Origin: an uncultured Pseudokineococcus sp.
GTDB lineage: Bacteria; Actinomycetota; Actinomycetes; Actinomycetales; Quadrisphaeraceae
Assembly (NCBI RefSeq): GCF_947495735.1
Contig: NZ_CANMAA010000001.1
Span: forward strand, 124,001 to 188,000
Direction: 5' to 3'
Length of the DNA stretch: 64,000 nt
This document shows, piece by piece, positions 8,522-28,954 of this stretch. Positions within the stretch are counted from its first letter, which is position 1. Every line of letters begins with the position of its first letter. Under the pieces are notes generated by a model. That model saw nothing but the letters and a program-made list of their open reading frames with translations, was not told the DNA's origin and did not search any database. The translations under genes and the position numbers were made by a program.

Positions 8522-9967
8522 TCAGCTCGTCGCCGGCTCGTACCGGCGGAGCCGGTGCGTGCCGCGGACCAGCGCGCGCAGGTCCTCGAGGGACCCGGTG
8601 ACCGTCCCGGTGGCGCGGGCCTGCACGAGGACGTTGCCGAGCGCGGTCGCCTCGACGGGCCCGGCGAGGACGGGACGCCCGCACGCGTCGGCGGTGAGCT
8701 GGCACAGCAGCGTGTTCCGGGCGCCGCCGCCGACCACGTGGACGACGTCGACGTCGCGGCCCGAGAGGCGCACGGCGTCCTCGACGGCCCGGGCGAAGGC
8801 CCCGGCCAGGCTGTCGAGGACGCAGCGCACCACGGCGGCGCGCTCGACCGGGGAGGGCTGCCCGGTGGCCTCGCACGCCCGCTGGACGCGCCCGACCATG
8901 GGCCCCGGCGGCAGGAACGACGGGTCGTCCACGTCCACCACGGGACCGCCCGGCGGCAGGTCCCCGGCGGCGGCGAGCAGCCGGCCCAGGTCGGCGTCGC
9001 CGCCGTCGCCGCGCCACTCCTCCAGGCAGCACTGCAGGACCCACAGGCCCATGACGTTGTGCAGGTACCGCACGCGCCCGTCGACGCCGCGCTCGTTGGT
9101 GAAGCCCGCGGCGAGGCTCTCGGGGGCGAGGACCGGGTCCTCGAGCTCGACCCCCACCAGCCCCCAGGTGCCGCAGGCGATGTAGGCGAACCGCTCGTCG
9201 GTGGCCGGCACGGCCACGACGGCGGAGGCGGTGTCGTGGCTCCCGACGGCGACCAGCTCGGTGCCGCGCAGGCGCGTGCGGTCCACGACGGCCGGCAGCA
9301 GCGGGCCGAGCCGCGCCCCGGCGTCGACGACGTCGGGCAGGAGCGCCGGCGAGACGCCCGCCAGCTCGAGCAGGTCCTGCGCCCACCGGCCGGTGCGCAC
9401 GTCGGCGAGGCCCGTGGTGGAGGCGTTGGTCGACTCCGCGACGCGCTGGCCGGAGAGCCAGAACCCCAGCAGGTCCGGCAGCAGGAGCAGCTGCTCCGCC
9501 CGCTCGAGCAGGGGGCCGTCGGCCTCCGCGACGAGCTGGTAGATCGTCGTGAACGGCAGGTGCTGCAGCCCGTTGCGGGCGTAGAGGTCGTCGGCCGCCA
9601 GTCGCTGGTGCACGCGCTCGGCGACGCCGTCGGTGCGGGGGTCGCGGTAGGAGCGGGGGTTGGCGAGGAGCCCGCCGCCGCCATCCAGCAGGGCGTAGTC
9701 CACCGCCCACGTGTCGACGGCGACGCTGCTCACACCGTCGGGACCGGCGCGGTGGGCGGCGTCGGCGAGGCCCGCCAGCGCGTCCTGCCAGAGGCCGAGG
9801 ACGTCCCAGTGCAGGCGGCCGCTTCGGCCGTCCGGGCCCGCCGCCACCTCGACGGCGCCGTTGCGGAAGCGCGCGACCTCCGTCAGCTGCAGCCGGTCGG
9901 GGGCGACGTCGCCGAGCATCACGCGCCCGCTGGAGGCACCCAGGTCGACGGCCGCGTGCAGGCTCAC
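8522..9967 (-). CDS. rhaB: Rhamnulokinase
   Basis: A 481-residue FGGY-family sugar kinase that phosphorylates L-rhamnulose to L-rhamnulose 1-phosphate. Phosphate-binding DLGASSGR is at residues 8-15; the likely catalytic base is Asp245 in GSHDTASAV; CGTWGLVGVE and the adenosine-site VGGGARNTLLCQLTAD follow. DLGASSGRV at the very start is characteristic of RhaB rather than xylulokinase or glycerol kinase. Length equals the usual 480-490. It lies 40 bases downstream of rhaD in the rhaM-rhaI-rhaD-rhaB order, which by itself supports the assignment. Confidence 0.95.
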   Translation of the reverse strand: MSLHAAVDLGASSGRVMLGDVAPDRLQLTEVARFRNGAVEVAAGPDGRSGRLHWDVLGLWQDALAGLADAAHRAGPDGVSSVAVDTWAVDYALLDGGGGLLANPRSYRDPRTDGVAERVHQRLAADDLYARNGLQHLPFTTIYQLVAEADGPLLERAEQLLLLPDLLGFWLSGQRVAESTNASTTGLADVRTGRWAQDLLELAGVSPALLPDVVDAGARLGPLLPAVVDRTRLRGTELVAVGSHDTASAVVAVPATDERFAYIACGTWGLVGVELEDPVLAPESLAAGFTNERGVDGRVRYLHNVMGLWVLQCCLEEWRGDGGDADLGRLLAAAGDLPPGGPVVDVDDPSFLPPGPMVGRVQRACEATGQPSPVERAAVVRCVLDSLAGAFARAVEDAVRLSGRDVDVVHVVGGGARNTLLCQLTADACGRPVLAGPVEATALGNVLVQARATGTVTGSLEDLRALVRGTHRLRRYEPATS

Positions 9968-10007: not shown

Positions 10008-12059
10008 TCACCGCAGGAACGCCGCGGCGACGCCGGAGTCCACCGGCACGTGCAGGCCCGTGGTCCGCGAGAGCTCGCCGCCGGTGAGGACGAAGACGGC
10101 GTCGGCCACGTGCTCGGGCAGCACCTCGCGCTTGAGCAGCGTCCGCTGGGCGTAGAAGGCGCCCAGCTCCTCCTCGGGGATGCCGTAGGTCTTCGCGCGC
10201 TGGGCGCCCCACCCGCCGGCGAAGATGCCGGAGCCCCGCACGACGCCGTCGGGGTTGACGCCGTTCACCTTGATCCCGTGCTCGCCGAGCTCGGCGGCCA
10301 GCAGGCGCACCTGGTGGGCCTGGTCGGCCTTCACGGCCGAGTAGGCGATGTTGTTCGGGCCCGCGAAGACGCTGTTCTTGCTGGAGATGTAGACGACGTC
10401 GCCGCCCATGCCCTGGGCGATGAGCACGCGGGCGCACGCCTGGGAGACCAGGAAGCTGCCCTTGGCCATGACGTCGTGCTGCAGGTCCCAGTCGCGCTCC
10501 GTCGTCTCCAGCAGCGGCTTGGAGATCGACAGGCCCGCGTTGTTGACGACGAGGTCGAGCCCGCCGAAGGCCAGGACGGCGTCGCGGACGGCCGCGGCCA
10601 CCGCGGCCGGGTCGGACACGTCGGCCGCGACGCCGACGGCGACGTCGGTCCCCTTCGCCCCGGCGATGCCCGCGGCGGCCTCCTGGGCCTTCGCGAGGTC
10701 GAGGTCGGCGACGACGACGCACGCGCCCTCGGCGGCCAGCCTCGTGGCGATCGCCTTCCCGATGCCCGAGGCCGCGCCGGTCACGAGGGCGACGCGCGTG
10801 GCCAGCGGCTTCGGCCGCGGCCGGCGGGCCAGCTTGGCCTCCTCCAGCGCCCAGTACTCGATGCGGAACTTCTCCGCCTCGTCGATGGGCGCGTACGTGC
10901 TCACCGTCTCGGCACCGCGCATGACGCCGATCGCGTTGCGGTAGAACTCGCCCGCCACGCGGGCCGTCTGCTTGTCCGCGCCGTAGGTGAACATGCCGAC
11001 GCCGGGGACGAGGACGACGGCGGGGTCGGCGCCGCGCATCGCCGGGCTGCCCGGCACGGCGTGCCGCTCGTAGTAGGCCGTGTACTCCGCGCGGTAGGCC
11101 TCGTGCAGCGCGGGCAGCCGCTCGAGCACCTCCTCGAGGGGGGCGGTGGCGGGCAGGTCCAGCACGAGGGGGCGGACCTTGGTGCGCAGGAAGTGGTCCG
11201 GGCAGGACGTGCCGAGCGCCGCCAGGCGGGGGTGCTCGGAGCGCGCGAGGAAGTCGAGCACCGCGGGGGAGTCGTCGTAGTGGCCGACCTGGGGGGCGTC
11301 CGTGGACGCCAGCCCGCGCAGCACCGGCGCCAGGGCGGCGGCGCGCTCGCGGCGCTCGGCCTCGGGCAGGGGGGCGTGCCCGGCCAGCTCCTCGCCGAAG
11401 GGGTGGGTGCCGCTGGCGGCCTCGCGCTCGGCGAGGAAGGACTCCGCGGTGCGGACGATCTCGAGCGAGCGCTCCTGGCACTCCTCGCTGGTGGCGCCCC
11501 AGGCGGTGATGCCGTGGCCGCCGAGCACGCAGCCGATCGCCCGGGGGTTCGCCCGCGCCACCTCGGCGATGTCCAGGCCGAGCTGGAAGCCCGGGCGCCG
11601 CCACGGCACCCACGCGACGCGGTCGCCGAAGACCTCGCGGACCAGGGCCTCGCCGTCCGCGGCCGTCGCCAGCGCGATGCCCGCGTCGGGGTGCAGGTGG
11701 TCGACGTGCGCCGCCTCGACGAGCCCGTGCATGGCCGTGTCGATCGAGGGCGCCGCCCCGCCTCGCCCGTGCAGGCAGTAGTCGAAGGCCGCGACCATCT
11801 CGTCCTCGCGCTCCACGCCGGGGTAGACGTCGACGAGCGCGCGCATCCGGTCCAGGCGCAGGACGGCGAGGCCGTCGGCGGTGAGGGTGCCGAGGTCGCC
11901 CCCGGAGCCCTTCACCCACAGCAGCTCGACCTCGCGGCCGGTCGCCGGGTCGACGTCGACGCCTTTCGCGGACGTGTTGCCGCCCGCGTAGTTGGTCGTG
12001 GTGGGGTCGGCGCCGAGGGCGTTGGAGCGGGCGACGAGGTCGGCGACGGGGGTGCTCAC
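10008..12059 (-). CDS. rhaD: Bifunctional rhamnulose-1-phosphate aldolase / short-chain (lactaldehyde) dehydrogenase
   Basis: A fusion of about 683 residues. The N-terminal part (to about 420) is a class II, zinc-dependent aldolase splitting L-rhamnulose 1-phosphate to DHAP and L-lactaldehyde; the metal-binding HLHPD motif is at about 121-125. The C-terminal part is a short-chain dehydrogenase with TGAASGIG at about 426-433 and the catalytic YSAVK at about 572; in characterised homologues it oxidises L-lactaldehyde to L-lactate with NAD+. Called RhaD, RhaE or RhaEW in different taxa. I prefer the GTG at 12059 because AGGAG lies 6 bases upstream; an ATG at 12110, overlapping the rhaI stop as TGATG, would add 17 Pro/Ser/Thr-rich residues. 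The lactate product links this operon to lutABC at the other end of the window. Confidence 0.94.
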   Translation of the reverse strand: MSTPVADLVARSNALGADPTTTNYAGGNTSAKGVDVDPATGREVELLWVKGSGGDLGTLTADGLAVLRLDRMRALVDVYPGVEREDEMVAAFDYCLHGRGGAAPSIDTAMHGLVEAAHVDHLHPDAGIALATAADGEALVREVFGDRVAWVPWRRPGFQLGLDIAEVARANPRAIGCVLGGHGITAWGATSEECQERSLEIVRTAESFLAEREAASGTHPFGEELAGHAPLPEAERRERAAALAPVLRGLASTDAPQVGHYDDSPAVLDFLARSEHPRLAALGTSCPDHFLRTKVRPLVLDLPATAPLEEVLERLPALHEAYRAEYTAYYERHAVPGSPAMRGADPAVVLVPGVGMFTYGADKQTARVAGEFYRNAIGVMRGAETVSTYAPIDEAEKFRIEYWALEEAKLARRPRPKPLATRVALVTGAASGIGKAIATRLAAEGACVVVADLDLAKAQEAAAGIAGAKGTDVAVGVAADVSDPAAVAAAVRDAVLAFGGLDLVVNNAGLSISKPLLETTERDWDLQHDVMAKGSFLVSQACARVLIAQGMGGDVVYISSKNSVFAGPNNIAYSAVKADQAHQVRLLAAELGEHGIKVNGVNPDGVVRGSGIFAGGWGAQRAKTYGIPEEELGAFYAQRTLLKREVLPEHVADAVFVLTGGELSRTTGLHVPVDSGVAAAFLR

Positions 12060-12109
12060 GGGGGTCTCCTGGGAGGTCGGCGTCGGAGGGCTCGGGGGAG
12101 GGGTGCTCA

Positions 12110-13288
12110 TCAGGCGCCCCACCCGGCCTGGGTGCCGCCCACGCGCTCGGCGGCGACCCGCTCGGCGTACCCGGAGGCCGCGAAGGCGCGGTAGGGGTCG
12201 GCGGGCAGCCCGCGGCTCTCGCGCAGCTCGGCGAGCAGGGGCCGGACGTCGGTGCTGTAGGCGTCCATGAGCAGGCCGTTCGCGGCGAGCACGTCACCGG
12301 CGCGCTGGGCCTGCCCGAGCGCCTCGCGGTCGACCAGCAGGGCCTTGGCGGTGGCCTCCTGCACGTTCATGACCGACCGGATCTGCCCGGGGATCTTCTC
12401 CTCGATGTTGTGGCACTGGTCGAGCATGAAGTTGACGCCCGAGTCGGGGCGCAGGGCGTCGCCGCCGACGATCTCGTGCATGATCCGGAACAGCTGGAAC
12501 GGGTCGGCGGCGCCGACGATGAGGTCGTCGTCGCCGTAGAAGCGCGAGTTGAAGTCGAAGGCGCCGAGCCGGCCCGCCCGCAGCAGCTGGGCGACGATGA
12601 ACTCGATGTTCGTCCCCGGCGCGTGGTGGCCGGTGTCCAGCACCACCATCGCCTGCTCGCCGAGCGCCAGGCAGTGCAGCAGCGAGGTGCCCCAGTCGGG
12701 GATGTCCATCGCGTAGAAGTACGGCTCGTAGAACTTGTACTCCAGCACGATGCGCATGTCGGCGTCGAGACCGGCGTAGACCTCGGCGAGGGACTCCGCG
12801 AGGCGGTCCTGGCGGCCGCGCAGGTCGTCCTGGCCCGGGTAGTTGGTGCCGTCCGGCAGCCAGATCTTGAGGTCCTTCGAGCCCGTGGCCCGCATCACGT
12901 CGAGGCACTGCAGGTGGTGCTGCACGGCCTTGCGGCGGATCGCGGGGTCGGCGTTGGTCAGCGACCCGAGCTTGTAGTCGTCGTCCTGGAAGACGTTGGA
13001 GTTGATCGTCCCCAGCTGCACGCCCTCGTCGGCGGCGTGGGCCGCCAGCGCCCCGAAGTCGTCGACGAGGTCCCACGGGATGTGCAGCGAGACCCGGGGC
13101 GCGGCGCCGGTGTGGCGGTGCACCTGCGCGGCGTCGCTGACCTTCTCGAAGGGGTCGCGCGGGACGCCCTTCGTCGGGAAGACCTTGAAGCGCGTCCCCG
13201 CGTTGCCGAAGGCCCAGCTCGGGAGCTCGATGCTCTGCTGGGCGAGGGCGTCGAGGGCGTGCTGGCGGCGCTGGTCGGACGTGGTCAT
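12110..13288 (-). CDS. rhaI: L-rhamnose isomerase
   Basis: A 392-residue cytoplasmic enzyme converting L-rhamnose to L-rhamnulose. It is of the RhaI type found in actinobacteria and pseudomonads (xylose-isomerase-like TIM barrel), not enterobacterial RhaA. Visible conserved segments are FPTKGVPRDPFEKV near residue 36, TINSNVFQDDDYKLGSLTN, LKIWLPDGTNYPGQDD, LEYKFYEPYFYAMDI, VLDTGHHAPGTNIEFI and FDFNSRFYGDDDL, which carry the metal and substrate ligands of the family. The ATG at 13288 overlaps the end of rhaM by 4 bases; the frame is open further upstream but only inside rhaM. Its stop overlaps or abuts the next gene, rhaD. Confidence 0.95.
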   Translation of the reverse strand: MTTSDQRRQHALDALAQQSIELPSWAFGNAGTRFKVFPTKGVPRDPFEKVSDAAQVHRHTGAAPRVSLHIPWDLVDDFGALAAHAADEGVQLGTINSNVFQDDDYKLGSLTNADPAIRRKAVQHHLQCLDVMRATGSKDLKIWLPDGTNYPGQDDLRGRQDRLAESLAEVYAGLDADMRIVLEYKFYEPYFYAMDIPDWGTSLLHCLALGEQAMVVLDTGHHAPGTNIEFIVAQLLRAGRLGAFDFNSRFYGDDDLIVGAADPFQLFRIMHEIVGGDALRPDSGVNFMLDQCHNIEEKIPGQIRSVMNVQEATAKALLVDREALGQAQRAGDVLAANGLLMDAYSTDVRPLLAELRESRGLPADPYRAFAASGYAERVAAERVGGTQAGWGA

Positions 13289-13686
13289 CGGGGGCCTCCG
13301 GCAGGGGCGGTCGGGAGAGCGCCGGGCCCGGGCGGGACGGCGGCGGGCGGGACGGCTGCGCGCTGGGCGTCGAGGTCGAACACGCACTCCAGGCGGACGG
13401 TCCCGGTGTCGGGGCGCCCGCCGGGGAGGTCGGCGAAGAAGGGGGCCATCTCGGCCTGCCACCGGGCGTTGACCTCGGTGGCGTCCATGGCCGCCTGGGC
13501 GGCGTCGAGGTCGTCGGCGACGACCGTGCCGACGAGGAGCCCGTCGCCGCGCAGGAAGAGCCGGTAGTCGCGCCAGCCGGAGGCGGCGAGCGCCTCGAGC
13601 ATCTCGGGCCAGACCTCGGCGTGGCGGCGGGTGTACTCCTCGAGCCGGTCGGGGCGGACCTGCAGGGTGAAGCAGTACTGGGGCAT
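13285..13686 (-). CDS. rhaM: L-rhamnose mutarotase
   Basis: A 133-residue dimeric alpha/beta-barrel (ferredoxin-like) protein interconverting the alpha and beta anomers of L-rhamnose before isomerisation. The first 104 residues match the usual family length, with the active-site region RRHAEVWPEML (His22) and WRDYRLFLRGDG. The last 30 residues are a Pro/Ala-rich tail not needed by the family. AGGAG sits 5-6 bases before the ATG. It is the first gene of the rha operon; the operator-like TGAAACGTTCCA lies 17 bases upstream in only 75 bases of non-coding DNA. Confidence 0.94.
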   Translation of the reverse strand: MPQYCFTLQVRPDRLEEYTRRHAEVWPEMLEALAASGWRDYRLFLRGDGLLVGTVVADDLDAAQAAMDATEVNARWQAEMAPFFADLPGGRPDTGTVRLECVFDLDAQRAAVPPAAVPPGPGALPTAPAGGPR

Positions 13687-13761: not shown

Positions 13762-16700
13762 TCAGCCGCCGGTGACGACGACCCGCGTCGTGACGACCAG
13801 GCCGGACACCCGGCCCGTGGCGACGACCTCGGCCGAGCCCGTCGAGGTGCGCGGGTGGACCACGGCGGTCACCTCGCCCCGGCCCTCGGCGTCGGTCCGG
13901 ACGCGGGCGAGGCGCCGGCCGTCGAGGACGACGTCCACGGCCTCCCGGGGGGCGAAGCCGCTGACGGACACGGTGGTCCGCCCGCCGGCGACCACCCCGC
14001 CCGCGAGGACCAGCTGCGGCCCCGCCTCGACGAGCTCGCCCGGCCCCGGGTCCTCCCCGGTGTAGGCGATGCTCGGCGCCGGCGGCGCCTCCATCCCCGC
14101 CCCGAGGAAGTAGGAGGTGTGCGGCGGCTGGTTGTAGCTGGTGTTCTGCCACGCCACCGCCAGGCGGTAGGTCGGGTCGGACATCAGGGTGCGGAGCCGG
14201 TGCTCCGTGACGTCGGTGGTCGTGTGGACCCGCAGCGCCGAGGAGTCCTCGAGCCGCGTGACGACCTCCTCGCGCCAGTCGCCGAAGAGGTCGGCCTGGA
14301 TCGCCGGGGTGCCCTTCGTGCCGTTGGCCGTGAGCGTCCCGGAGGCCCGGTAGACCTCGACCTCCTCCTGCGCCTCCCAGTCCCACTTCGCGATGGTGGG
14401 GACGCCGGCGCCGCGGTCGGCGTCGTAGTCGTGGTCGGTGATCTCCCGCAGGAGGTCCCCGTCCCACCAGGTGAGGAAGTTGGCCGCGGGGATCGAGGTG
14501 GACAGCAGCTCGCCGTCCGCCGAGCGCATCTCGCCGACGCGGGAGTTCCAGGCCGCGTCACCGCCGACGGCCCAGCCCTCCGCCCCCTCGTGCCGGGGGT
14601 CGACGTCGCCCATCGCCGCGCGGCCGGTGTCGCGCGTGGCCGGGATCGACCAGATGATCTCGCCCGTCGCCGCGTCCCGGAACGTCGCGCCGCGCTGCCC
14701 CGAGGCGCCCATGTCCTCGTGCGCGGCGAAGACCTCGAGCCCGGGACGGCCCGGGGCGAAGTCCGAGACGTGCAGGGCGTCGCCGTGGCCCAGCCGCGTG
14801 TTGTAGAGCGGCGTGCCGTCGTCGTCGAGGGTCAGGGAGCCGAAGACGACCTCGTCCTTCTGGTCGCCGTCGACGTCGGCCACCGCGAGCTGGTGGTTGC
14901 CCTGGCCGCGGTACTGCGAGCCCGCCTGGTCGGTGTCGAAGACCCACCGCTGCGTGAGCTCCGCGCCGTCGAAGTCGTACGCGGCGACGACCGCCCGCGT
15001 GTAGTAGCCGCGGCTGAAGATGACGCTCGGCCGCTCGCCGTCGAGGTAGGCGGTGCCCGCCAGGAAGCGGTCGACGCGGTTGCCGTAGCCGTCGCCCCAG
15101 GCGCCCACGTCACCGCGCGGCGGCGTGTAGTCGACGGTGTCCACGGCGGCGCCGGTGGCCCCGTCGAAGACGGTCAGGTACTCGGGGCCCGTGAGCACGT
15201 ACCCGCCGGAGTTGCGGAAGTCCGCGCTCGCGTCGCCGATGACCCGGCCCTGGCCGTCGACGGTGGCGTCGGCGGTCTTCATGGTGACCTCGGCGCGCCC
15301 GTCGCCGTCCAGGTCGTAGACCTGGAACTGCGTGTAGTGGGCGCCGGCGCGGATGTTGCGCCCCAGGTCGATGCGCCACAGGCGCGTGCCGTCCACCTCG
15401 TAGGCGTCCACGTAGACCGGGCCCGTGTAGCCCGCCCGGGAGTTGTCCTTGGCGTTGGACGGGTCCCACTTCAGGACGACCTCGAGCTCGCCGTCGCCGT
15501 CCAGGTCCGCCACCGAGGCGTCGTTCGCCGCGTAGGTGTAGGGCTGCCCGGCCTCGTCGACGCCGTCCGCCGGCTTGTCCAGCGGGATGTCCAGCGTCTG
15601 GTCGTCCCAGACCGAGAAGTCCTCGGTCGCCCAGCGCTCGACGCCCTCGACCACCGCGCTCACGCGGTAGGTCGAGCCCGTCCCGCCGTCGGCGTCGAGC
15701 AGGTTCGTGCTGCCGGTGAGCGGCTCGTCGGTGACGCGCTCGCCGTCGCGGTAGACGTGGAAGGCGACGGACTCCGGGTCCAGGCCCAGCATCCGCCAGC
15801 CGACGTACGCGCCGCCGTCGACGGCCACGGCGACGGGGGAGCGGTCGAGGCGCTCGGCCTGGCGCTCGAGGACGGTCGGGGCCTCGGTGAGGAGGACCTC
15901 CGAGCGCTCCGAGGTGCCCCCGGCGTTCACGGCGGCCACCGCGTAGCGGTAGGGCACCGTGGTGAGGACGTCGGTGTCGGTGAAGGTCGGCCCGTCCGCG
16001 CGGCCGACCAGCGCCAGCTCGCCGTCGGCCCCGGGGGCGCCCTCGGCGCCCTCGGCCCGGTAGACGAGGTAGTACCCGGCGCCCTCGGAGGGGGCCCAGG
16101 TCAGGGTGAGCTCGCGGGCCTGGAGGTCGGTCACCGCGAGGCCGGTGGGCACCGGCGCGGTGGCGACGTCGTCGTCCACCGTCGTCACGAGGACGTCCTC
16201 GGTCGGCACCGACTCGGTGCCCGCGGCGTCCAGGGCGACGACGCGGTAGGCGTACTCGAGCCCGACGGCGGCGGTGGTGTCGACGTAGGAGGTCTCCTGG
16301 ACGTCGGCCAGGGCCTCGGCCTCCGCGGCCCCCGGCGCCTGGCGGTAGACGCGGTAGCCGGCGGCCTCGGGCACGCCGGCCCACGACAGGGGCACGGCGA
16401 CGCCGCTGCCCTCCACGTCGACGTCGCCCGCCGCGAGGGCGGTCGGCGCCAGCAGCAGCGCGGTGACCTCCACCCCGTTGAGCCGGGAGGACGAGCCCGT
16501 CATGACGAGGTTGATCTGCCCGTCGACCACGTCGACCGGCTGGCTGATCTTCTTGCTGACCGCTCCGCGGCCGGCGTTGGAGGACCCGTAGGCGCGGCCC
16601 TCGATCTGCACCTCGGAGCGGCTCGTGCCGATCCAGTCGCCGTTGTAGGTCGTCACGGCGTAGGTGCCGCGGGGCACGTCGATCGCGAGCTCGTGCACCG

Positions 16701-19245
16701 GCGCGGGCAGCAGGAAGTCGCGCTCGACGTCGTCCGGGGCCTCGGGGAAGTCGGTGCCGCGGTCGCGGCCCGCGATGGCCGGCTCCAGCGAGAGCCAGCC
16801 GAAGCCGCGCTCCGGGGTGTAGGCGGTGGTCTCGTCGAGCGCCGTCCAGCCCTCGGCGAGCGGGTCGCCCTGGCGCTGGACGTCCAGGCGCAGGAGGGCG
16901 GCGCGGGTGGTGACGCGCACGGCCGCCGACGGCCGGGACTCGCCGCGGCCGTTGACGGCCACGACGCGCAGGTCGTACGAGGCGCCCTCCGCCAGGCCCG
17001 TGACCGCGGCCCGCGCCACGGTGGAGGTGGTGGCGAGCACGTAGTCGGCGTCGGGCGCCCCGGCGTCCTTGCGCTCGACCTGGTAGATGTCGGCGCCCTC
17101 GACGGGCTCCCACGTCAGCACGGTCCCCGAGCTGGACACCGAGCCGGCGACGACGCCGGTCGGGGCGGCCGGGACCTGCGCGGGGGGCTCGGCCTCCACG
17201 ACCTCCTGCGCCAGGGGGATGTCGAGGCGGGCGACGTCCGCGGCGACCAGGCGCGCCATCTGCACGGCGCCGTAGTCCTGGAAGTGGGTGTCGTCCTGCG
17301 TGCCGTTCGGGCGGTTCGGGTAGACGCCCGCCGGGACCCAGAGGAAGACCGACTTGGCGCGCTCGGGGCCGATCTCGGTGAGGAGCGCGCGGCTGGAGGC
17401 CGAGAGGTCCACCAGCGGGGCGCCGGTCTCCGCGGCCAGCTCCCTGACGGCCTCGACGTACGCGGGGAAGGAGACGTTCGCCGTGCCGTCGGCGGCGAAG
17501 GAGCGCCGGGAGACGGGCGTCACGAGGATCGGCGTCGCGCCGCGCTGGCGGGCGCCGTCGACGAAGGTGCGCAGGTACTCCCGGTAGTCGGCCGGGGCCG
17601 CGAAGCGGTCGTCGACGCCGTAGGAGTTGTCGTTGTGGCCGAACTGCGCGAACAGGTAGTCGCCCGGCCGCACGTCCAGGAGCACGTCGTCGAGCCGGCC
17701 CTGGCTGATGAAGTTCTTCGAGCTGCGCCCGCCGATGGCCCTGTTGACGACGCTGACGTCGTCGGTCAGGTACCGGTCGAGCATCTGGCCCCAGCCGGCC
17801 TGGGGGGTGTAGTCGTCGGTGTAGGTCTGTACCGTCGAGTCGCCGGTGATCCAGGCGGTGGGCTCGGCGCCCGCCTCGCGGGGCGCCTGCGGCGTGATCG
17901 TGAGAGCGGCGAGCTTCGGCGCCGTCCCGCCGACGTCGACGTTCAGCTGGCCGTCCACGAGGGCGATGTCGAAGGACATCTCGAGGAGCTCGCCGGCGGG
18001 CAGGGCGGTGGGCAGGACCTTCGCCATCTGCTCCACCTCCATCGACAGGTCGCTGGACTCCACCGTGTCGCCGGCGACGAGGTCGACGGTGTAGTCGCCC
18101 GGCGGGAGGTCGACGACGAGCTCGGTGGCGCCCAGGGTGAGGAAGTCCCCGCGCAGCGGGTCGTCGCCGCCGCGGTCGGTCGCGCTGGCCGCGCGCGGGT
18201 CCACGAGGCCGTAGCGCTGGTCGGCGGAGTAGGCGGTGGAGGCGTCCACGCGCACCGCGCCCTCGGCCAGCTCGCCGCTGCCGAGGTCGAGGACCAGGGG
18301 CCCCTCGAGCGCGGGGGCGGGGGTGGTGAGCGAGGAGGCGGCGGCCTGCGAGGGGACCGACACCTCGCCGGCGGCGTCGACCGCGCGCGCCCGGTAGTAG
18401 TGGACCGCGGTGGTGTCCACGCCCCGGTCGGTCGTGAAGACGTCGCGGCCCTCGACGCGGGCGACCTCGGTGTAAGGGCCGGCGACGGCGGCGGCGCGCT
18501 CGAGCACGTAGCCGGCGGCGCCGGGCACCTCGTCCCAGCGGACCACGACGGCGTCGTCGGTGACGCGCGCCATCCGCACGTCCTGGGGCGCGGGCAGCAG
18601 CGAGGCGGCCGGGTCCTCGGGGTCGACCTCGACCTCGGTGACCTGGATGCCGTTCACGTAGCCGCCGGCGCCCGCGCCGGTGACGTCGACGGTCAGCTGT
18701 CCGTCCTCGACCACCGTGCGCCAGGTCTCCTCGGAGACCGACTGGCGGGCCGACACGCTGCCGACGGGGGCGCCCTCCAGGGAGATCGAGGTCCGCGTCG
18801 AGCTGGTGCCCGGCAGCACGTCGCCGGAGAGGACGCGGACGTCGTAGGCGCCGTCCGGGACGTCGACGGCGAAGCCCCAGGCGGTGCCCAGGACGAAGTC
18901 CTCGGCGACCGGACCCGTGTCGGTGCCGGTGCGGTGGCGCGAGATCGGGCTGACGTCGCCCGCCGGCACGATGCCGTAGCCGGCCTCCGCCGAGTAGCGG
19001 TTCGACTCCGGCACGCCCGTCCAGCCGTCGGCGACGGGGCTGGAGGCGGTGCCGAGGTCGAAGGACCAGCTCGTGGGCGCGGGCGCGGCGCCCGTGGCCA
19101 GCGCCGGCGCGCCCAGGGCGGTCAGGGCCCCGGCCGTCACCGCGGCCACGGCGGCGCGGCTGCGGCGGCGCCCGTGCGCAGCGGACCGGACGAGGGGAGC
19201 GGGCGGCGGGGGAGCAGCGGAGGTCGGGGGGCGGGAGGGGAGCAC
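13762..19245 (-). CDS. Secreted multidomain rhamnogalacturonan acetylesterase (CE12)-rhamnogalacturonan lyase (PL11) fusion
   Basis: An 1827-residue exoenzyme. N to C: signal peptide (cleavage near 50, ALA-TG); beta-sandwich module 1 (57-206); Fn3 (217-307); module 2 (316-452); SGNH esterase of family CE12 (463-680) with Ser470 in TGDS, AIGGRSS, FGHND and the Asp651-Thr-His654 dyad; Fn3 (694-781); module 3 (783-931); two Fn3 (933-1121); PL11 lyase propeller (1124-1716) with repeated DLDGDG calcium-type loops; Ig-like tail (1740-1827). The three modules share an AEGW/AYSA...RYG opening and a VDGQ(L/I)N(V/L)(D/V) ending. CE12 removes acetyl groups from rhamnogalacturonan I so PL11 can beta-eliminate it. 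The lyase lacks the loop that makes Bacillus YesX exolytic, so it is probably endo-acting like YesW. The GTG start has AAGG upstream. It diverges from the first CUT1 operon. Confidence 0.9.
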   Translation of the reverse strand: MLPSRPPTSAAPPPPAPLVRSAAHGRRRSRAAVAAVTAGALTALGAPALATGAAPAPTSWSFDLGTASSPVADGWTGVPESNRYSAEAGYGIVPAGDVSPISRHRTGTDTGPVAEDFVLGTAWGFAVDVPDGAYDVRVLSGDVLPGTSSTRTSISLEGAPVGSVSARQSVSEETWRTVVEDGQLTVDVTGAGAGGYVNGIQVTEVEVDPEDPAASLLPAPQDVRMARVTDDAVVVRWDEVPGAAGYVLERAAAVAGPYTEVARVEGRDVFTTDRGVDTTAVHYYRARAVDAAGEVSVPSQAAASSLTTPAPALEGPLVLDLGSGELAEGAVRVDASTAYSADQRYGLVDPRAASATDRGGDDPLRGDFLTLGATELVVDLPPGDYTVDLVAGDTVESSDLSMEVEQMAKVLPTALPAGELLEMSFDIALVDGQLNVDVGGTAPKLAALTITPQAPREAGAEPTAWITGDSTVQTYTDDYTPQAGWGQMLDRYLTDDVSVVNRAIGGRSSKNFISQGRLDDVLLDVRPGDYLFAQFGHNDNSYGVDDRFAAPADYREYLRTFVDGARQRGATPILVTPVSRRSFAADGTANVSFPAYVEAVRELAAETGAPLVDLSASSRALLTEIGPERAKSVFLWVPAGVYPNRPNGTQDDTHFQDYGAVQMARLVAADVARLDIPLAQEVVEAEPPAQVPAAPTGVVAGSVSSSGTVLTWEPVEGADIYQVERKDAGAPDADYVLATTSTVARAAVTGLAEGASYDLRVVAVNGRGESRPSAAVRVTTRAALLRLDVQRQGDPLAEGWTALDETTAYTPERGFGWLSLEPAIAGRDRGTDFPEAPDDVERDFLLPAPVHELAIDVPRGTYAVTTYNGDWIGTSRSEVQIEGRAYGSSNAGRGAVSKKISQPVDVVDGQINLVMTGSSSRLNGVEVTALLLAPTALAAGDVDVEGSGVAVPLSWAGVPEAAGYRVYRQAPGAAEAEALADVQETSYVDTTAAVGLEYAYRVVALDAAGTESVPTEDVLVTTVDDDVATAPVPTGLAVTDLQARELTLTWAPSEGAGYYLVYRAEGAEGAPGADGELALVGRADGPTFTDTDVLTTVPYRYAVAAVNAGGTSERSEVLLTEAPTVLERQAERLDRSPVAVAVDGGAYVGWRMLGLDPESVAFHVYRDGERVTDEPLTGSTNLLDADGGTGSTYRVSAVVEGVERWATEDFSVWDDQTLDIPLDKPADGVDEAGQPYTYAANDASVADLDGDGELEVVLKWDPSNAKDNSRAGYTGPVYVDAYEVDGTRLWRIDLGRNIRAGAHYTQFQVYDLDGDGRAEVTMKTADATVDGQGRVIGDASADFRNSGGYVLTGPEYLTVFDGATGAAVDTVDYTPPRGDVGAWGDGYGNRVDRFLAGTAYLDGERPSVIFSRGYYTRAVVAAYDFDGAELTQRWVFDTDQAGSQYRGQGNHQLAVADVDGDQKDEVVFGSLTLDDDGTPLYNTRLGHGDALHVSDFAPGRPGLEVFAAHEDMGASGQRGATFRDAATGEIIWSIPATRDTGRAAMGDVDPRHEGAEGWAVGGDAAWNSRVGEMRSADGELLSTSIPAANFLTWWDGDLLREITDHDYDADRGAGVPTIAKWDWEAQEEVEVYRASGTLTANGTKGTPAIQADLFGDWREEVVTRLEDSSALRVHTTTDVTEHRLRTLMSDPTYRLAVAWQNTSYNQPPHTSYFLGAGMEAPPAPSIAYTGEDPGPGELVEAGPQLVLAGGVVAGGRTTVSVSGFAPREAVDVVLDGRRLARVRTDAEGRGEVTAVVHPRTSTGSAEVVATGRVSGLVVTTRVVVTGG

Positions 19246-19583: not shown

Positions 19584-19606
19584 ACCTGAGCAGAGAGGCT
19601 CCAGTG

Positions 19607-20902
19607 ATGAAACGATGCATGCGGATCGCCGCAGTCTTGACCGCGGCGGCGCTCACGACCACCGCCTGCGGGAGCTCCGGGTCCGGTGACGGCGGTGAGG
19701 ACGGCGGTGACGTCAACCTCACGATGACGTGGTGGGGCAACGACGACCGCGCCCAGCGGTACAACGAGGCCATCGAGGCCTACGAGGCCGAGAACCCGGG
19801 CGTGAGCGTCACGACGTCCTTCGTCGACTACCCGAACTACTGGCCGGCCCGCGCCACCGAGGCCGCGGGGCGGTCGCTGCCCGACGTCATGCAGATGGAC
19901 GTGTCCTACCTCCGCCAGTTCGCCTCCAACGGGCAGCTGCTCGACTTCGCCGAGGTCGAGGGCGACGGCGTCGACCTGAGCGGGCTGCCGGACCCGCTGA
20001 TCCCCTCGGGGCAGGTGGAGGGCGCCCAGTACGGCATCCCGGTCGCCACCAACGCCTTCACCCTCTTCACCGACGCCGCGGGCCTCGCGCAGGTCGGGGT
20101 CGAGCTGCCGGAGAACCCGACCTGGGAGGAGTACCACGACTTCCTGCGCGAGGTGGCCACCGCCGGCGGCACGACCGAGGACGGCCAGCCCGTGTACGGC
20201 GCCGGCGACTACACCGGCGTCTTCTGGATGTTCATCCACTGGCTCAACCAGCAGGGCATCGAGGCCTTCACCGAGGACGGCGAGCTCGGCTTCACCCAGG
20301 ACGACCTCGAGACCTGGCTGTCCTCGGTCGACGACCTGCGCGCCGAGGGTCTGCTCATCCCGCCCGCGCGCATCAACCAGCTGTCGCCGCTGTCGCCCTT
20401 CGACGCGGGGGAGACGACGAGCGAGATGACGTGGGACAACTTCGCCGCCGGCTACGCGACGAACAACCCCGACGTGGAGCTGGAGCTGCAGCCCATCCCG
20501 TCCGACGACCCGGAGAACCCGGGCCTGTTCCTCAAGCCGTCGATGCTGTTCAGCATCGGGGCCAACACGGACCACCCGGAGGAGGCGGCGGCGCTCATCG
20601 ACTACCTCGTCAACGACCCGGAGGTCGGTGACGTCTTCGGGACGTCGCAGGGGCTGCGCGCCTCCAGCTTCCAGCGGGACGCCATGACGATGGAGGGCCT
20701 CGACGCCGAGGTGGCCGCCTACGAGGAGTCCATCGAGCCCCTCCTCGTCGACTCGCCGCCCCCGCCGGTGGAGGGCTTCGGGACGATCGAGGCCCGCCTC
20801 CTGGAGATCACCGAGAACATCAACTACGGCACCGTCTCCGTCGAGGACGCCGCCGCGCAGTGGTACAGCGAGGCCGAGCAGACGCTGGCCGACAACCAGT
20901 AG
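19607..20902 (+). CDS. CUT1 sugar ABC transporter substrate-binding lipoprotein (rhamnogalacturonan-oligosaccharide candidate)
   Basis: A 431-residue extracellular solute-binding protein of family 1. The lipoprotein signal ends in TTTAC with the acylated Cys21. The mature part starts with a Gly/Ser/Asp linker and then LTMTWWGNDDRAQRYNEAI, typical of oligosaccharide-binding proteins (MsmE/YesO-like). GAGAGG lies 8 bases before the ATG; a GTG one codon earlier is possible. It is the first gene of an operon with two permeases, a DUF624 protein and a PL11 lyase, the same set as the Bacillus yes rhamnogalacturonan cluster, so galacturonate-rhamnose oligosaccharides are the probable cargo (inference). 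A strong hairpin follows the stop. No ATPase gene accompanies it. Confidence 0.9.
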   Translation: MKRCMRIAAVLTAAALTTTACGSSGSGDGGEDGGDVNLTMTWWGNDDRAQRYNEAIEAYEAENPGVSVTTSFVDYPNYWPARATEAAGRSLPDVMQMDVSYLRQFASNGQLLDFAEVEGDGVDLSGLPDPLIPSGQVEGAQYGIPVATNAFTLFTDAAGLAQVGVELPENPTWEEYHDFLREVATAGGTTEDGQPVYGAGDYTGVFWMFIHWLNQQGIEAFTEDGELGFTQDDLETWLSSVDDLRAEGLLIPPARINQLSPLSPFDAGETTSEMTWDNFAAGYATNNPDVELELQPIPSDDPENPGLFLKPSMLFSIGANTDHPEEAAALIDYLVNDPEVGDVFGTSQGLRASSFQRDAMTMEGLDAEVAAYEESIEPLLVDSPPPPVEGFGTIEARLLEITENINYGTVSVEDAAAQWYSEAEQTLADNQ

Positions 20903-20908
20903 CACCCC

Positions 20909-20944
20909 GCCGGGGCGCACGGGCTGGTGCCCGTGCGCCCCGGC
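20909..20944 (+). terminator. Intra-operon hairpin after the binding-protein gene
   Basis: A perfect 16-bp stem (20909-20924 with 20929-20944) around the loop TGGT lies 6 bases after the stop codon and 46 bases before the first permease. Such hairpins stabilise the upstream mRNA or attenuate read-through, giving more binding protein than permease. Confidence 0.65.
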
Positions 20945-20990
20945 GCCACCGCACGGACGGAGATCACAGGGCTGGAGAGGGGATGGGTCG

Positions 20991-21953
20991 ATGACGACGG
21001 TCACCCAGGCGGTGCGCGAGCGCGAGCAGGGGCGCGACGTGCAGGAGCCGAGGGCGCCGCGCTCGCGCCGGCGCCGGGCGGAGGACGTGGCGGGCTACAG
21101 CTTCCTGCTTCCCTGGCTCCTGGGGTTCTTCCTGCTGACGGCGGGCCCGATGCTCGCCTCGCTGTACCTGTCCTTCACGCGCTACGACCTCTTCAACGCG
21201 CCGCAGTGGGTCGGGCTGGACAACTTCCGCGAGCTGTTCTCCGACCCGCGGTACCGCGACTCCGTCCGGGTCACCACGGTCTTCGCCGTGGTGGGCGTGC
21301 CCATCAAGCTCGCCGCCTCGCTCGCGGTCGCCATGCTGCTCAACGCGGCGCTGGGGGCGAAGGGCTTCTACCGCTCGGCGTTCTACCTGCCCTCCCTGGT
21401 GGGCGCGAGCGTCTCGATCGCCATCGTGTGGCGGGCGATGTTCAACGACGGCGGCATCGTCGACCAGATCTCGCAGGGCGTCGGCGGCGAGGCGGGGGGC
21501 TGGATCGGAGACCCCACCCGCACGATGCCGATGTTCATCCTGCTGGCGGTGTGGCAGTTCGGCGCTCCCATGGTGATCTTCCTCGCCGGGCTCAAGCAGG
21601 TGCCGGCCGAGCTCTACGAGGCCGCCTCGGTGGACGGCGCCGGACCGCTGCGCCGGTTCCTCTCCATCACCCTGCCGATGCTGAGCCCGGTGATCTTCTT
21701 CAACCTGCTGCTCGAGACGATCAACGCGTTCCAGGTCTTCGCCTCGGCCTACATCATCTCGAACGGGACCGGCGGGCCGGCGAACTCGACGCTCTTCTAC
21801 ACCTTGTACCTCTACCGGCGCGGCTTCGAGGACTTCGAGATGGGCTACGCCTCCGCGATGGCGTGGTTGCTCGTCCTCGTCGTCGGAGCCATCACCTTCG
21901 TCTTCTTCAAGACCTCGAAGTCCTGGGTGCACTACAGCGGGGAGACGCGATGA
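20991..21953 (+). CDS. CUT1 sugar ABC transporter permease (MalF-like)
   Basis: A 320-residue inner-membrane permease with an Arg-rich cytoplasmic N-terminus (residues 1-35) and six predicted helices starting at GYSFLLPWLLGFFLL. The ATPase-coupling loop EAASVDGAGPLRRFLSITLP is the EAA motif at about 208-227. GLDNFRELFSDPRYRDSVRVT after helix 1 is typical of the MalF/UgpA-like first permease. The stop overlaps the next ATG (ATGA). It forms a heterodimer with the following permease. Confidence 0.92.
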   Translation: MTTVTQAVREREQGRDVQEPRAPRSRRRRAEDVAGYSFLLPWLLGFFLLTAGPMLASLYLSFTRYDLFNAPQWVGLDNFRELFSDPRYRDSVRVTTVFAVVGVPIKLAASLAVAMLLNAALGAKGFYRSAFYLPSLVGASVSIAIVWRAMFNDGGIVDQISQGVGGEAGGWIGDPTRTMPMFILLAVWQFGAPMVIFLAGLKQVPAELYEAASVDGAGPLRRFLSITLPMLSPVIFFNLLLETINAFQVFASAYIISNGTGGPANSTLFYTLYLYRRGFEDFEMGYASAMAWLLVLVVGAITFVFFKTSKSWVHYSGETR

Positions 21954-22885
21954 CGCGCACGACGGCCGAGCCGGGCACGCGGACGGTCGACGAGAGCGCA
22001 CGGACCCCCGAGCAGCACGCGACCGCCCGGCGGTCCGCGCGCCGCTCGCGGGACCGCCGGCACAAGCTGGTCTTCCACCTGGTCACGGGTGCCCTCGTGG
22101 TGGTCGTGCTCTACCCGGCCGTGTGGATGCTCGTCTCCTCGTTCCGACCGTCGGCCCAGATCATCGGAAACGTCAGCATCGTCCCGACGGAGGTGACGCT
22201 GGACAACTTCGTGGCGGCCTTCAACGGGATCGGCGGGGTGTCCTTCTGGACGTTCTTCATGAACTCCACGATCCTCGCCGTGGGCTCGGTCGTGGGCATC
22301 GCCCTCTCCAGCGCCGTGAGCGCGTACGCGCTGGCGCGCATCGACTTCCGCGGCCGCCGGGTGTGGTTCGGGCTGATGATCGCGACCCTCCTGCTACCGG
22401 TCCACGTGATCATCATCCCGCAGTACATCGTGTTCAACAACCTCGGCCTGGTGAACACCTACTGGCCGCTGCTGATCGGGAAGTTCCTCGCCACCGAGGC
22501 GTTCTTCGTCTTCCTCATGGTGCAGTTCATGCGGAACCTGCCGCGCGAGCTCGACGAGGCGGCGCGCATCGACGGGGCGGGCCACCTGCGGATCTTCGGC
22601 TCGATCATGCTGCCGCTGATGAAGCCCGCGCTCGTCACCTCCTCGATCTTCGCCTTCATCTGGTCGTGGAACGACTTCCTCGGTCCGCTGCTCTACCTGA
22701 AGGACCCGAACCTGTACTCGCTGCCCATCGCGCTGCGGCTCTACGTCGACCAGACGACGGGGGCGGCGAACTTCGGGCCCCAGATGGCGACGGCCGTGCT
22801 CGCCCTCGTGCCGGTGCTGATCTTCTTCATCATCTTCCAGCGGTACATCGTCGAGGGCGTCGCCACCCAGGGCCTCAAGGGATGA
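21950..22885 (+). CDS. CUT1 sugar ABC transporter permease (MalG-like)
   Basis: A 311-residue second permease. After a 40-residue polar N-terminus, six helices begin at VFHLVTGALVVVVLYPAVWML. The EAA loop is EAARIDGAGHLRIFGSIMLP at about 201-220, and the WSWNDFLGPLLYL segment and the end GVATQGLKG are classic for the MalG group. The start is in an ATGA overlap with the upstream gene and the stop overlaps the DUF624 gene in the same way, so all are translationally coupled. Confidence 0.92.
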   Translation: MTRTTAEPGTRTVDESARTPEQHATARRSARRSRDRRHKLVFHLVTGALVVVVLYPAVWMLVSSFRPSAQIIGNVSIVPTEVTLDNFVAAFNGIGGVSFWTFFMNSTILAVGSVVGIALSSAVSAYALARIDFRGRRVWFGLMIATLLLPVHVIIIPQYIVFNNLGLVNTYWPLLIGKFLATEAFFVFLMVQFMRNLPRELDEAARIDGAGHLRIFGSIMLPLMKPALVTSSIFAFIWSWNDFLGPLLYLKDPNLYSLPIALRLYVDQTTGAANFGPQMATAVLALVPVLIFFIIFQRYIVEGVATQGLKG

Positions 22886-23559
22886 GCGCGGCCGCCGTCG
22901 CCCGACGCCGCGACCGCGGCGCCGGGCGCGGCGCGTCGGGCCGGGCGACGAACCGCGACGCGAGCCGCAGCCCGCTCACCGCGCTGGGGCTCCTCGGCGA
23001 GGTCGTCGTCGTGGGCGTCGCCGTGGCCCTGCTCACCGTGCCCCTCGTGACGGCGCTGCCCGCCGCGGCGGCGGGGGGCGAGCACCTGCGGGCGCACGCC
23101 CGGGGGGAGCGCGACGACGTGCGCTCCCTGCTCGCCCGCCTGCGGCGGGCCTGCCGGCGGCCCTGGGGGGTCCCGGTCGCGGCCGGGGCGCTCCTGCTGG
23201 TCCTCGTGGTCGACGGCGGCATCGTCCTCCTCGCGCCCGCCGGCCCCCCGGTGCCGGCGCTCGCCGGGCTCGGTGCCGGGGCGCTGCTCCTCGTCGTGCT
23301 GCTGCGGGCGGCCGCCGCCTGGTCGCCCACGGCCTCCGACGTCGCGGGCCCCCCGTGGCGGCGCCTGGTGGCCGCCGCCGCCGCGCGCTCCCTCGACGAC
23401 CTGAGCGGCTCGGCGCTGCTGCTGCTGGCGCTCGGCCTCGCCGGCGTCCTCGTGTGGATGCTGCCCCTGTTCGCCCTGCTCGTCGGGGGCCTCGTCGTCC
23501 TCGCCGCCGTCGCCGTGGAGCAGCGCGCCGACGCCCGGGCGCGGGCCGGCGGCGCCTGA
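22882..23559 (+). CDS. DUF624 (YesL-like) membrane protein
   Basis: A 225-residue integral membrane protein with about five hydrophobic stretches (near 37-60, 98-118, 123-143, 177-190, 192-210). The segment VVVVGVAVALLTVPLVTALPA followed by a conserved polar stretch (GERDDVRSLLARLRRA) matches the DUF624 pattern. DUF624 proteins such as Bacillus YesL sit next to CUT1 transporters in rhamnogalacturonan and other polysaccharide loci; their molecular role is not established. The gene overlaps the upstream permease by 4 bases, so it is produced with the transporter. The family call rests on pattern and context, not on a catalytic motif. The next 116 bases up to the lyase gene hold no recognised signal. 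Confidence 0.7.
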   Translation: MSAAAVARRRDRGAGRGASGRATNRDASRSPLTALGLLGEVVVVGVAVALLTVPLVTALPAAAAGGEHLRAHARGERDDVRSLLARLRRACRRPWGVPVAAGALLLVLVVDGGIVLLAPAGPPVPALAGLGAGALLLVVLLRAAAAWSPTASDVAGPPWRRLVAAAAARSLDDLSGSALLLLALGLAGVLVWMLPLFALLVGGLVVLAAVAVEQRADARARAGGA

Positions 23560-23675
23560 CGCCCCCGGACAGCACCACCCGCACCACCCGACCCGACCCG
23601 TCCGACCTGACCGGACACACCCACGGGACCCACGGCAGCACCCTGGCGGGGCCCCCGACCGTGAGGAGCTCGACG

Positions 23676-26288: not shown

Positions 26289-26327
26289 GCCCTCCGCCGC
26301 GGCGACCCTCGGGGTCGCACCCCTGCG

Positions 26328-26356
26328 CCCGGCCGCCGGTAGCGTCGGCGGCCGGG
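26328..26356 (+). terminator. Stem-loop between the PL11 gene and the LacI gene
   Basis: CCCGGCCGCCG (26328-26338) pairs exactly with CGGCGGCCGGG (26346-26356) over a 7-base loop. It lies 40 bases after the lyase stop and 26 bases before the LacI start, so it may end the operon or limit read-through into the regulator. Confidence 0.55.
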
Positions 26357-26382
26357 TGCAGGGCCCGGGCCGGGAGGGTGCC

Positions 26383-27519
26383 ATGGCGAGCGTCAAGGAC
26401 GTCGCGAGGTCGGCGGGGGTCTCCGTCGGGACGGTGAGCAACGTGCTCAACCGTCCCGAGGGCGTGAGCCCCGTGCTGCGCGAGCGCGTGGAGCGCGCCA
26501 TCGCCGACCTCGGCTTCGTGCGCAACGAGTCGGCCCGCCAGCTGCGCGCCGGGTCGAGCCGCACCATCGCCGTCGTCGTCCTCGACGTCGCGAACCCCTT
26601 CTTCGCCGACGTCGTCGCCGGCGCGGACGAGGCGGCCGACGAGCAGGACGCCCTCGTGATCGTCTGCAGCAGCGCCGGTTCCGCCGAGCGCGAGGCCCGC
26701 CACCTGCTCCGCCTGGAGCAGCAGCGGGTGATGGGCGTGCTGCTGAGCCCGGTGCAGGACGCGGCGGGCCCCGCGCTCGCGGAGGTCCGCCGCCGCGGGA
26801 CGCCCGTCGTCCTCGTCGACCGCGGCACCCCCGACCCGGACCAGTCGTCGGTCGCGGTGGACGACGTGCGCGGCGGCGCGCTGGCGGGTGAGCACCTGCT
26901 CGCCCTCGGGCACCGGGAGCTCGGCTTCGTCGGGGGGCCGCTCGGCCTGCGGCAGGTCGACGAGCGCCTGCAGGGACTGCGGTCCGTGGCGCCGGGAGCG
27001 GACGTCCGGGTGGTCGAGAGCGCCGGGACCTCGGTCCGGGCGGGCTCGCAGGCGGCGGCCCAGGTCCTGGGCCTGCCGCCGGGCGAGCGGCCCACGGCGC
27101 TGTTCTGCGCCAACGACCTGCTGGCCATCGGCGTGCTCAACGAGTGCCTGCGGCGCGGGGTCCGCGTCCCCGAGGACGTCGCGCTCGTCGGCTACGACGA
27201 CATCAGCTTCGCGGCGACGACGACCGTGGCCCTGACCTCCGTGCGCCAGCCCCGCGAGCTGCTCGGCCGCACCGCCGTCCGGCTGCTGCTGGACCAGGTC
27301 GGCGACGGCCGCGGCCCGTCCGCGGCTCGGACGCGGACCGGCGCGCCCACCCGCCGCGGCGAGCAGGTCCTGTTCGCGCCGGACCTGGTGGTCCGCGCGT
27401 CGACGACCGGTCCGGGGCGGACGGCGACCTCGGCGCGCGGGCGGCCGGCGACCGGCACGGCACCGCCGCGGGAAGCGGCTGACGCGGTCGGTGGACCAGG
27501 GCCGCAGGGGCGCGCGTGA
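26383..27519 (+). CDS. LacI family transcriptional regulator (pectin-side candidate)
   Basis: A 378-residue regulator. The helix-turn-helix VKDVARSAGVSVGTVSNVLN (residues 4-23) and hinge (about 45-60) bind DNA; the rest is a periplasmic-binding-protein-like effector domain (VVVLDVANPFFADVV, GYDDISFAATTTVALTSVRQP). The last 35 residues are a low-complexity tail beyond the usual 330-340 length. It lies inside the rhamnogalacturonan region directly after the PL11 operon. The class B operators (GGAATGCGCTTTCC type) flank this region, so it is the likely ligand, responding to a galacturonate-containing product; that link is inference. GGGAGG lies upstream of the ATG. Confidence 0.9.
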   Translation: MASVKDVARSAGVSVGTVSNVLNRPEGVSPVLRERVERAIADLGFVRNESARQLRAGSSRTIAVVVLDVANPFFADVVAGADEAADEQDALVIVCSSAGSAEREARHLLRLEQQRVMGVLLSPVQDAAGPALAEVRRRGTPVVLVDRGTPDPDQSSVAVDDVRGGALAGEHLLALGHRELGFVGGPLGLRQVDERLQGLRSVAPGADVRVVESAGTSVRAGSQAAAQVLGLPPGERPTALFCANDLLAIGVLNECLRRGVRVPEDVALVGYDDISFAATTTVALTSVRQPRELLGRTAVRLLLDQVGDGRGPSAARTRTGAPTRRGEQVLFAPDLVVRASTTGPGRTATSARGRPATGTAPPREAADAVGGPGPQGRA

Positions 27520-28723: not shown

Positions 28724-28760
28724 CAGGGCCGTGCGCGCGCCGGGAGGGTGGAACGGTTCA
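28720..28760 (+). promoter_or_regulatory. Putative promoter and class A operator of uxaAB
   Basis: A consensus -35, TTGACA (28720-28725), is followed by a weak -10 region and the palindrome-like TGGAACGGTTCA (28749-28760), which differs from TGAAACGTTTCA at one position in each half. The long leader to uxaA at 28955 contains no other recognised signal. Confidence 0.5.
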
Positions 28761-28954
28761 GCGCGTGGTCGCCGCCCGCGCGTCGCGCCACCCGCACCCC
28801 GGCGCGAAGGACGCCCGGACCGGCAGAGCCGCCGGGCGCGGCCGACGACGCGCGACGCCGCGGACCGCAGGACCACCCGCCCCCGAGCGCGTGGTGGCGG
28901 CCCCGGTGCGTGCGACAGCTGCCCGGCGCCACCAGGTCTGCGGAGGAGAGAGCG

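Follow-up and report, generated by a model that had tools for sequence, protein, structure and literature searches.

A single coding frame in the window (the whole stretch of 64,000 nucleotides analysed here, from an uncultured Pseudokineococcus sp.) very probably encodes a secreted two-enzyme protein for the degradation of rhamnogalacturonan I (RG-I), with deacetylation and backbone cleavage carried on one chain. The pairing of a CE12 acetylesterase with a PL11 lyase is real and not new, the class being known from genomes and in print since 2018, and its finding here opens no new kind of system. What this analysis adds is the extent of the architecture, a correction of the origin of its three repeated modules and a testable residue difference between them. 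The domains, the SGNH residues of the CE12 part, the conservation of the architecture, the module tree and the gene neighbourhood were all computed here.

Gene and domain organisation

According to the ORF list and its translation, the frame (13762-19245, minus strand) starts with GTG and codes for 1827 amino acids; an AGAAGG element was seen by eye 9 nt upstream of the GTG. Its codon-position GC (GC1 0.74, GC2 0.53, GC3 0.99) matches that of a real gene in a GC-rich genome. An overlapping ORF of 2022 aa on the plus strand was dismissed, its codon-position GC showing an antisense-frame pattern. Domain boundaries were set from Pfam, from PDB searches and from domain models built in this analysis:

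13762..19245, minus strand: whole gene, CE12-PL11 fusion, 1827 aa (ORF, Pfam, codon-position GC)
19078..19245, minus strand: N-terminal signal region, residues 1-56, with RRRSR followed by a hydrophobic segment that ends in ALA (by eye from the translation)
18628..19077, minus strand: module 1 (GBD1), residues 57-206, PF21254 (Pfam, AlphaFold, fold comparison with YxiM 2o14)
18316..18597, minus strand: Fn3-type linker A, residues 217-310 (weak Pfam fn3, 14.1 bits; slot conserved in relatives)
17890..18300, minus strand: module 2 (GBD2), residues 316-452, PF21254, YxiM-type esterase N-domain (Pfam, PDB)
17230..17859, minus strand: CE12/SGNH acetylesterase domain, residues 463-672, with S470, G506, N538, D651 and H654 (Pfam, PDB, alignment)
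16903..17178, minus strand: Fn3 linker B, residues 690-781 (Pfam fn3, 45.9 bits)
16453..16899, minus strand: module 3 (GBD3), residues 783-931 (PF21254 below cut-off when scanned alone; AlphaFold, fold comparison with 2o14)
16156..16446, minus strand: Fn3-type linker C, residues 934-1030 (slot conserved in relatives)
15880..16140, minus strand: Fn3 linker D, residues 1036-1122 (Pfam fn3, 24.8 bits, cut-off 25)
14050..15876, minus strand: PL11 rhamnogalacturonan lyase, residues 1124-1732, RGI_lyase and RGL11_C (Pfam, PDB)
13765..14049, minus strand: C-terminal 95 aa, residues 1733-1827, possibly Ig-like (NCBIfam, below cut-off)

The Pfam scan of the whole protein placed PF21254 in three stretches and fn3 in two. 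When the Fn3 slots were scanned singly, only 690-781 rose above the fn3 cut-off; 934-1030 alone gave no Pfam match, nor did 1733-1827 alone. The latter stretch, taken as an Ig domain in the preliminary description, matched an NCBIfam Ig-like model at 18.5 bits, below the cut-off of 45, and a profile of this 95-aa tail was matched again, among the loci searched, only in Pseudokineococcus marinus. The remaining order, module-Fn3-module-CE12-Fn3-module-Fn3-Fn3-PL11, was recovered as first described by Pfam, PDB and our custom models, with Fn3 slots that are in part weak, and the Pfam and PDB comparisons agree in placing both the CE12 and the PL11 domain within the one open frame. The N-terminus is signal-like by eye, and the protein is probably secreted. 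The Fn3-type linkers would keep both catalytic sites on one chain.

Catalytic domains and gene neighbourhood

Lipase_GDSL_2 covers residues 468-619 with 62.6 bits against a Pfam cut-off of 32.9, and the best PDB relatives of the esterase part are YxiM (2o14) over 319-646 and the fungal rhamnogalacturonan acetylesterase RGAE (1deo) over 463-545. All five residues of the SGNH block are present, namely S470 (the Ser of GDS), G506, N538 (in GHND), D651 and H654 (in DTH), and they are invariant in 53/53 CE12 domains (52 rows, two of which repeat a record). The earlier assignment of 463-680 to the SGNH/CE12 class agrees with these results. As expected from its family, the domain would strip O-acetyl groups from the galacturonate of the RG-I backbone.

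In the lyase part, RGI_lyase (1128-1213) scored 107 bits against a cut-off of 27.8 and RGL11_C (1218-1724) 795 bits against a cut-off of 27. The best PDB relatives of about 1127-1731 are YesX, YesW and RGL11 (4cag); query positions 665-1269 were aligned to residues 5-606 of the 620 of YesX, corresponding to a nearly full-length PL11. In our PL11 alignment 150 residues are invariant across 52 rows. The whole domain can be aligned with the Bacillus lyases YesW, YesX and RGL11 (734-787 bits), but their PDB chains, of 591-620 aa, carry neither the esterase nor the modules of the window protein. Judged by its family, the domain would cleave the rhamnose-galacturonate backbone by beta-elimination. 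Acetyl groups are reported to hinder RG breakdown (PMC9487903) and RG lyases to be inhibited by acetylation (PMC6339884). The CE12 domain would remove acetyl groups that otherwise hinder backbone cleavage, and the two domains may act in synergy.

The neighbours of the fusion gene were identified from profile matches within the window:

8522-9967, minus strand: FGGY kinase, same strand as the fusion gene
10008-12122, minus strand: RhaD-ADH (TIGR02632), same strand as the fusion gene
12110-13462, minus strand: rhamnose isomerase (TIGR02635), same strand as the fusion gene
13285-13686, minus strand: rhamnose mutarotase, same strand as the fusion gene
19604-20902, divergent from the fusion gene: solute-binding protein
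20991-21953 and within 20927-22885, divergent: two permeases
23355-26288, plus strand: second PL11 (RGI_lyase, and RGL11_C in two stretches) with a C-terminal FIMAH domain
26053-27519, divergent: LacI regulator
28748-30529, divergent: altronate/galactarate dehydratase
30010-32010, divergent: mannitol-dehydrogenase-family protein, with fructuronate/tagaturonate reductase matches below cut-off
32074-33495, minus strand: UxaC
after UxaC and before GH106: Gfo/Idh proteins
40333-42999, minus strand: GH106
46615-49293, plus strand: GH78

From these genes we may fairly infer that the locus holds what an RG-I user would need for import and use of the products, which would be taken up and then used by the adjoining rhamnose and galacturonate genes. 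GH106 and GH78, two distinct rhamnosidase families, are each represented in this one locus, together with ABC-type importer genes.

The CE12 family also includes esterases for other acetylated compounds (PMC10189120). In an alternative reading the CE12 domain now acts on a different acetylated substrate, such as xylan, another pectin or a small ester, and the protein would then not be a two-step RG-I machine. YxiM, the closest solved relative, is described in PMC9487903 as being without biochemical characterisation, its homologue EstSJ deacetylates 7-ACA (PMC10189120), and the pairwise match to the fungal RGAE is partial, being confined to 463-545. We nevertheless regard such a drift as quite unlikely, since 50 distinct proteins carry CE12 and PL11 together (see below) and the gene sits in a rhamnose/galacturonate locus.

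Comparison with described proteins

Pamy_4308 of Paenibacillus amylolyticus 27C64, published in 2018, combines PL11, CE12 and CBM37 in a protein of 188 kDa with a signal peptide and is strongly upregulated on RG-I. Its authors consider that it likely cleaves acetylated RG-I directly, and stated that no earlier description existed of one enzyme with both domains (PMC6339884). It shares with the window protein the presence of PL11 and CE12 on one chain, presented as extracellular in its case, but its binding module is labelled CBM37 (PMC6339884). The size of Pamy_4308 fits the Paenibacillales type without GBD1 described below, and on that ground its modules would match those of this type. In 2023, 50 CAZy proteins with CE12 and PL11_1 were reported, and HUW50_16055 of Metabacillus (CE12:CBM35:PL11) was modelled with synergy proposed (PMC10483417). 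There too a single chain carries both CE12 and PL11, with a binding-type module placed between the two. The module is named CBM35 in that description, which mentions no PF21254, whereas the window protein has PF21254 and no Pfam CBM35; by position (440-644) the former corresponds to the Fn3-B/GBD3 slot of the window protein, and the two may be one and the same module, named differently. The authors of PMC10483417 know of no characterised CE12:PL11 protein, and our searches of open-access PMC text found no assay of one. Such a protein would offer a direct test of whether joined deacetylation and cleavage overcome the inhibition of RG lyases by acetylation (PMC6339884).

Other systems share single traits with the fusion. 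B. subtilis YxiM (2o14) and EstSJ have a galactose-binding-like N-domain directly before an SGNH esterase (PMC9487903), but are free-standing enzymes of about 380 aa that lack PL11, Fn3 and additional modules (PMC10189120). The cellulosomal Doc-CBM35-RGL11 and RGAE-Doc-CBM35-RGAE of Clostridium thermocellum likewise bring RGAE and RGL together for RG-I, but as separate dockerin-bearing proteins and not as one fusion (PMC4711584). CE12 and PL11 appear as separate proteins in PMC4711584, PMC12037645, PMC12844168 and PMC7480376, PL11 appears without CE12 in PMC12055684, and the families are only named in the accounts of PMC6344614, PMC6912079 and PMC4867992.

Occurrence of the fusion

We found 50 fused proteins with distinct cores, the window protein included, in Actinomycetota and Bacillota: 31 are CE12-first with GBD1, 17 CE12-first without GBD1 and 2 PL11-first. 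These numbers apply to candidates chosen by frame length (at least 1400-1450 aa), a choice that misses shorter or broken fusions, and to domain models for relatives that were built from the window and 21 fused loci and lean towards this architecture. The joining of CE12 and PL11 had initially been considered unusual, the two activities being normally found in separate proteins. This was not borne out by the survey, which shows the fusion to recur in two phyla; the published accounts that we found describe it from genomes and induction.

The first scan kept the best 80 of 563 loci and gives no frequencies. Within these 80, CE12 and PL11 lay in one frame in 21 loci, from Cryobacterium, Demequina, P. 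marinus, Sporosarcina, Cellulomonas, Microbacterium, Paenibacillus, Kribbella, Sediminihabitans, Antribacter, Miniimonas and Isoptericola. GBD1 was also present in 20/21, the Kribbella fusion being the one without it.

Among 394 genomes of the host's class, 64 had a PL11 match over the cut-off. In 7/64 the frame with the match was 1450 aa or longer, and all seven of these are fusions (the window and six others). Eleven regions of the class were examined, of which nine are fused (two of the nine repeat earlier records), one is GBD-Fn-Fn-PL11 and one is without CE12. A frame of 1276 aa in genome G288 yielded no CE12 and only scattered PL11 pieces. PL11-like matches below the cut-off were also seen in long frames of three class genomes (G102, G154 and G356).

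In the order of Paenibacillus sp. 32352, at least 201 of 296 genomes had a PL11 match over the cut-off. At least 25 Paenibacillales frames with PL11 reach 1400 aa; among the 25 listed, 21 are fusions and 4 are without CE12. The 21 fusions among the matches listed comprise 19 CE12-first and 2 PL11-first proteins (L142 and L145), and CE12 was detected in 0/7 shorter Paenibacillales PL11 frames that were examined. With the further fusions found in the genomes of L015, L018 and L022, the fusion is present in at least 24/296 genomes. The Paenibacillales type without GBD1 measures 1676-1789 aa. L142 and L145 have the reversed order PL11-GBD-CE12, followed in L142 by another GBD-CE12; L145 is truncated by the end of the examined stretch. 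In L131 a frame break inside GBD2 leaves a 209-aa frame and then a fused frame of 1540 aa.

Family and origin of the three modules

The modules belong to, or closely resemble, the family PF21254 (AGA-YXIM_GBD), which is named after beta-agarase and YxiM and corresponds to the N-domain of B. subtilis YxiM. Searched alone, module 1 (57-206) and module 2 (316-452) passed the PF21254 cut-off of 27 with 44.6 and 37.8 bits, whereas module 3 (783-931) stayed below it with 22.9 bits (E 9e-5). The host genome (96.7% complete) has no PF21254 match at E<=0.001 outside these three stretches. AlphaFold models reached a best mean pLDDT of 94 for module 1 and of 89 for module 3 (78-89 over five models). The nearest fold of both is the YxiM N-domain 2o14, with Z 18.2 and an rmsd of 1.9 over 134 residues for module 1 and Z 18.4 and 1.8 over 133 for module 3. 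The next folds are the C-terminal region of Bacteroides beta-glucuronidases, the ectodomains of plant ANX/FER and human malectin (Z 10.6 and 11.7 in the two comparisons). Farther matches include CBM35, CBM36 and others, module 1 matching the CBM35 with anhydrogalacturonic acid 2w47 at Z 9.7; by sequence no Pfam CBM35 model was matched at E<=1 by the whole protein or at E<=0.5 by single modules.

Any two of the modules share about 31% identity, with pairwise scores 13-22 standard deviations above those of 500 shuffles each. Their mutual homology, proposed in the preliminary description, is upheld by these values; their status as internal duplicates of this protein is not. In a tree of 126 modules selected from both phyla, built without inferring a root and with program warnings about the low number of columns, some long branches and the unusual composition of six rows, GBD1 forms a single group (support 99/99), GBD2 another (94/94) and GBD3 a third (98/98), in which four modules of three CE12-less PL11 proteins are nested. 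GBD1, GBD3 and all nine sampled PL11-alone modules come together (98/98) against GBD2, and the stand-alone CE12 modules of L123 and L124 lie beside the GBD2 group, not inside it, one of them on a very long branch. Because the tree groups the modules by position across both phyla, they are, as far as sequences tell, position-specific old paralogues that would already have diverged by the time the protein spread into both.

The position of arginine 827 also distinguishes the modules. The arginine is kept in 30/30 GBD1, 41/41 GBD3 and 9/9 PL11-alone modules, against 0/44 GBD2 of fused proteins, where V, G, T, A, I, S, H or Q is found instead. Recent duplication within this protein, giving three modules that each bind the substrate alike, would account for their homology at about 31% identity (z 13-22), but the grouping by position and the retention of R827 in 80/80 modules of the one side and in none of the other make it highly improbable. 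R occupies the 827 position in one stand-alone CE12 module and K in the other, and YxiM has R there and V at the 829 position. Since YxiM and one stand-alone CE12 module carry it, the arginine looks ancestral and lost in the GBD2 of fusions, and does not look like a marker of lyase-linked modules. The difference separates clades and may reflect one event. R829 and D843, kept in 37/44 and 42/44 GBD2, do not separate the module classes.

Predicted binding by the modules

A review treats the YxiM N-domain as an appended CBM related to galactose-binding domains (PMC9487903), and the beta-sandwich modules of the window protein would probably anchor the chain on the polymer. The retention pattern suggests that modules 1 and 3 preserve a putative site that is changed in module 2, which points to modules 1 and 3 as better candidates for substrate binding than module 2. 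A competing explanation, that the modules are mere spacers or folding domains without carbohydrate binding, is less probable in our view, yet a serious possibility. It fits the absence from module 2 of the arginine found in modules 1 and 3, and the fact that the YxiM N-domain is called a CBM from its fold, with no ligand described in PMC9487903. The fold resembles carbohydrate-binding domains (malectin, and for module 1 the CBM35 2w47), although a shared fold does not show function, and R827, D843 and D870 are kept in 30/30 GBD1 and 41/41 GBD3; both points argue for binding.

More speculatively, modules 1 and 3 and those of the CE12-less PL11 proteins could form an undescribed carbohydrate-binding family for galacturonate or for the unsaturated end made by the lyase, recognised through residues such as R827, R829 and D843, with module 2 having lost the site and serving the esterase only. 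We hold this to be unlikely; if true, the fusion would hold de-acetylated backbone or fresh ends near both active sites while moving along the polymer. The module comparison in any case picks out parts and residues as binding candidates.

History of the fusion

Stand-alone GBD-CE12 frames of 374 and 392 aa were found (L123 and L124), as were stand-alone GBD-Fn-Fn-PL11 proteins (L024, L036, L093, L116, L152 and L153). Because of these free-standing parts and of the module tree, the simplest history would be the joining of two pre-existing enzymes, GBD-CE12 and GBD-Fn3-Fn3-PL11, followed by movement of the fusion between Actinomycetota and Bacillota and by its partial loss there. The position of L123 and L124 beside the GBD2 group counts against a simple joining. 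A single origin with later losses does not follow from the PL11 tree, built by a quick method from 78 chosen rows, on which the fused label has to change 8 times.

Three placements may be added. L142 and L145 pair with each other on long branches of the PL11 tree. The fused protein of Sporosarcina beigongshangi (L010) lies among Actinomycetota in both the module and the PL11 trees, which suggests transfer between phyla. Finally, the plain PL11s of Clavibacter (L032-L034) fall inside a set with fused PL11s (98 in the PL11 tree), perhaps through loss of the esterase half.
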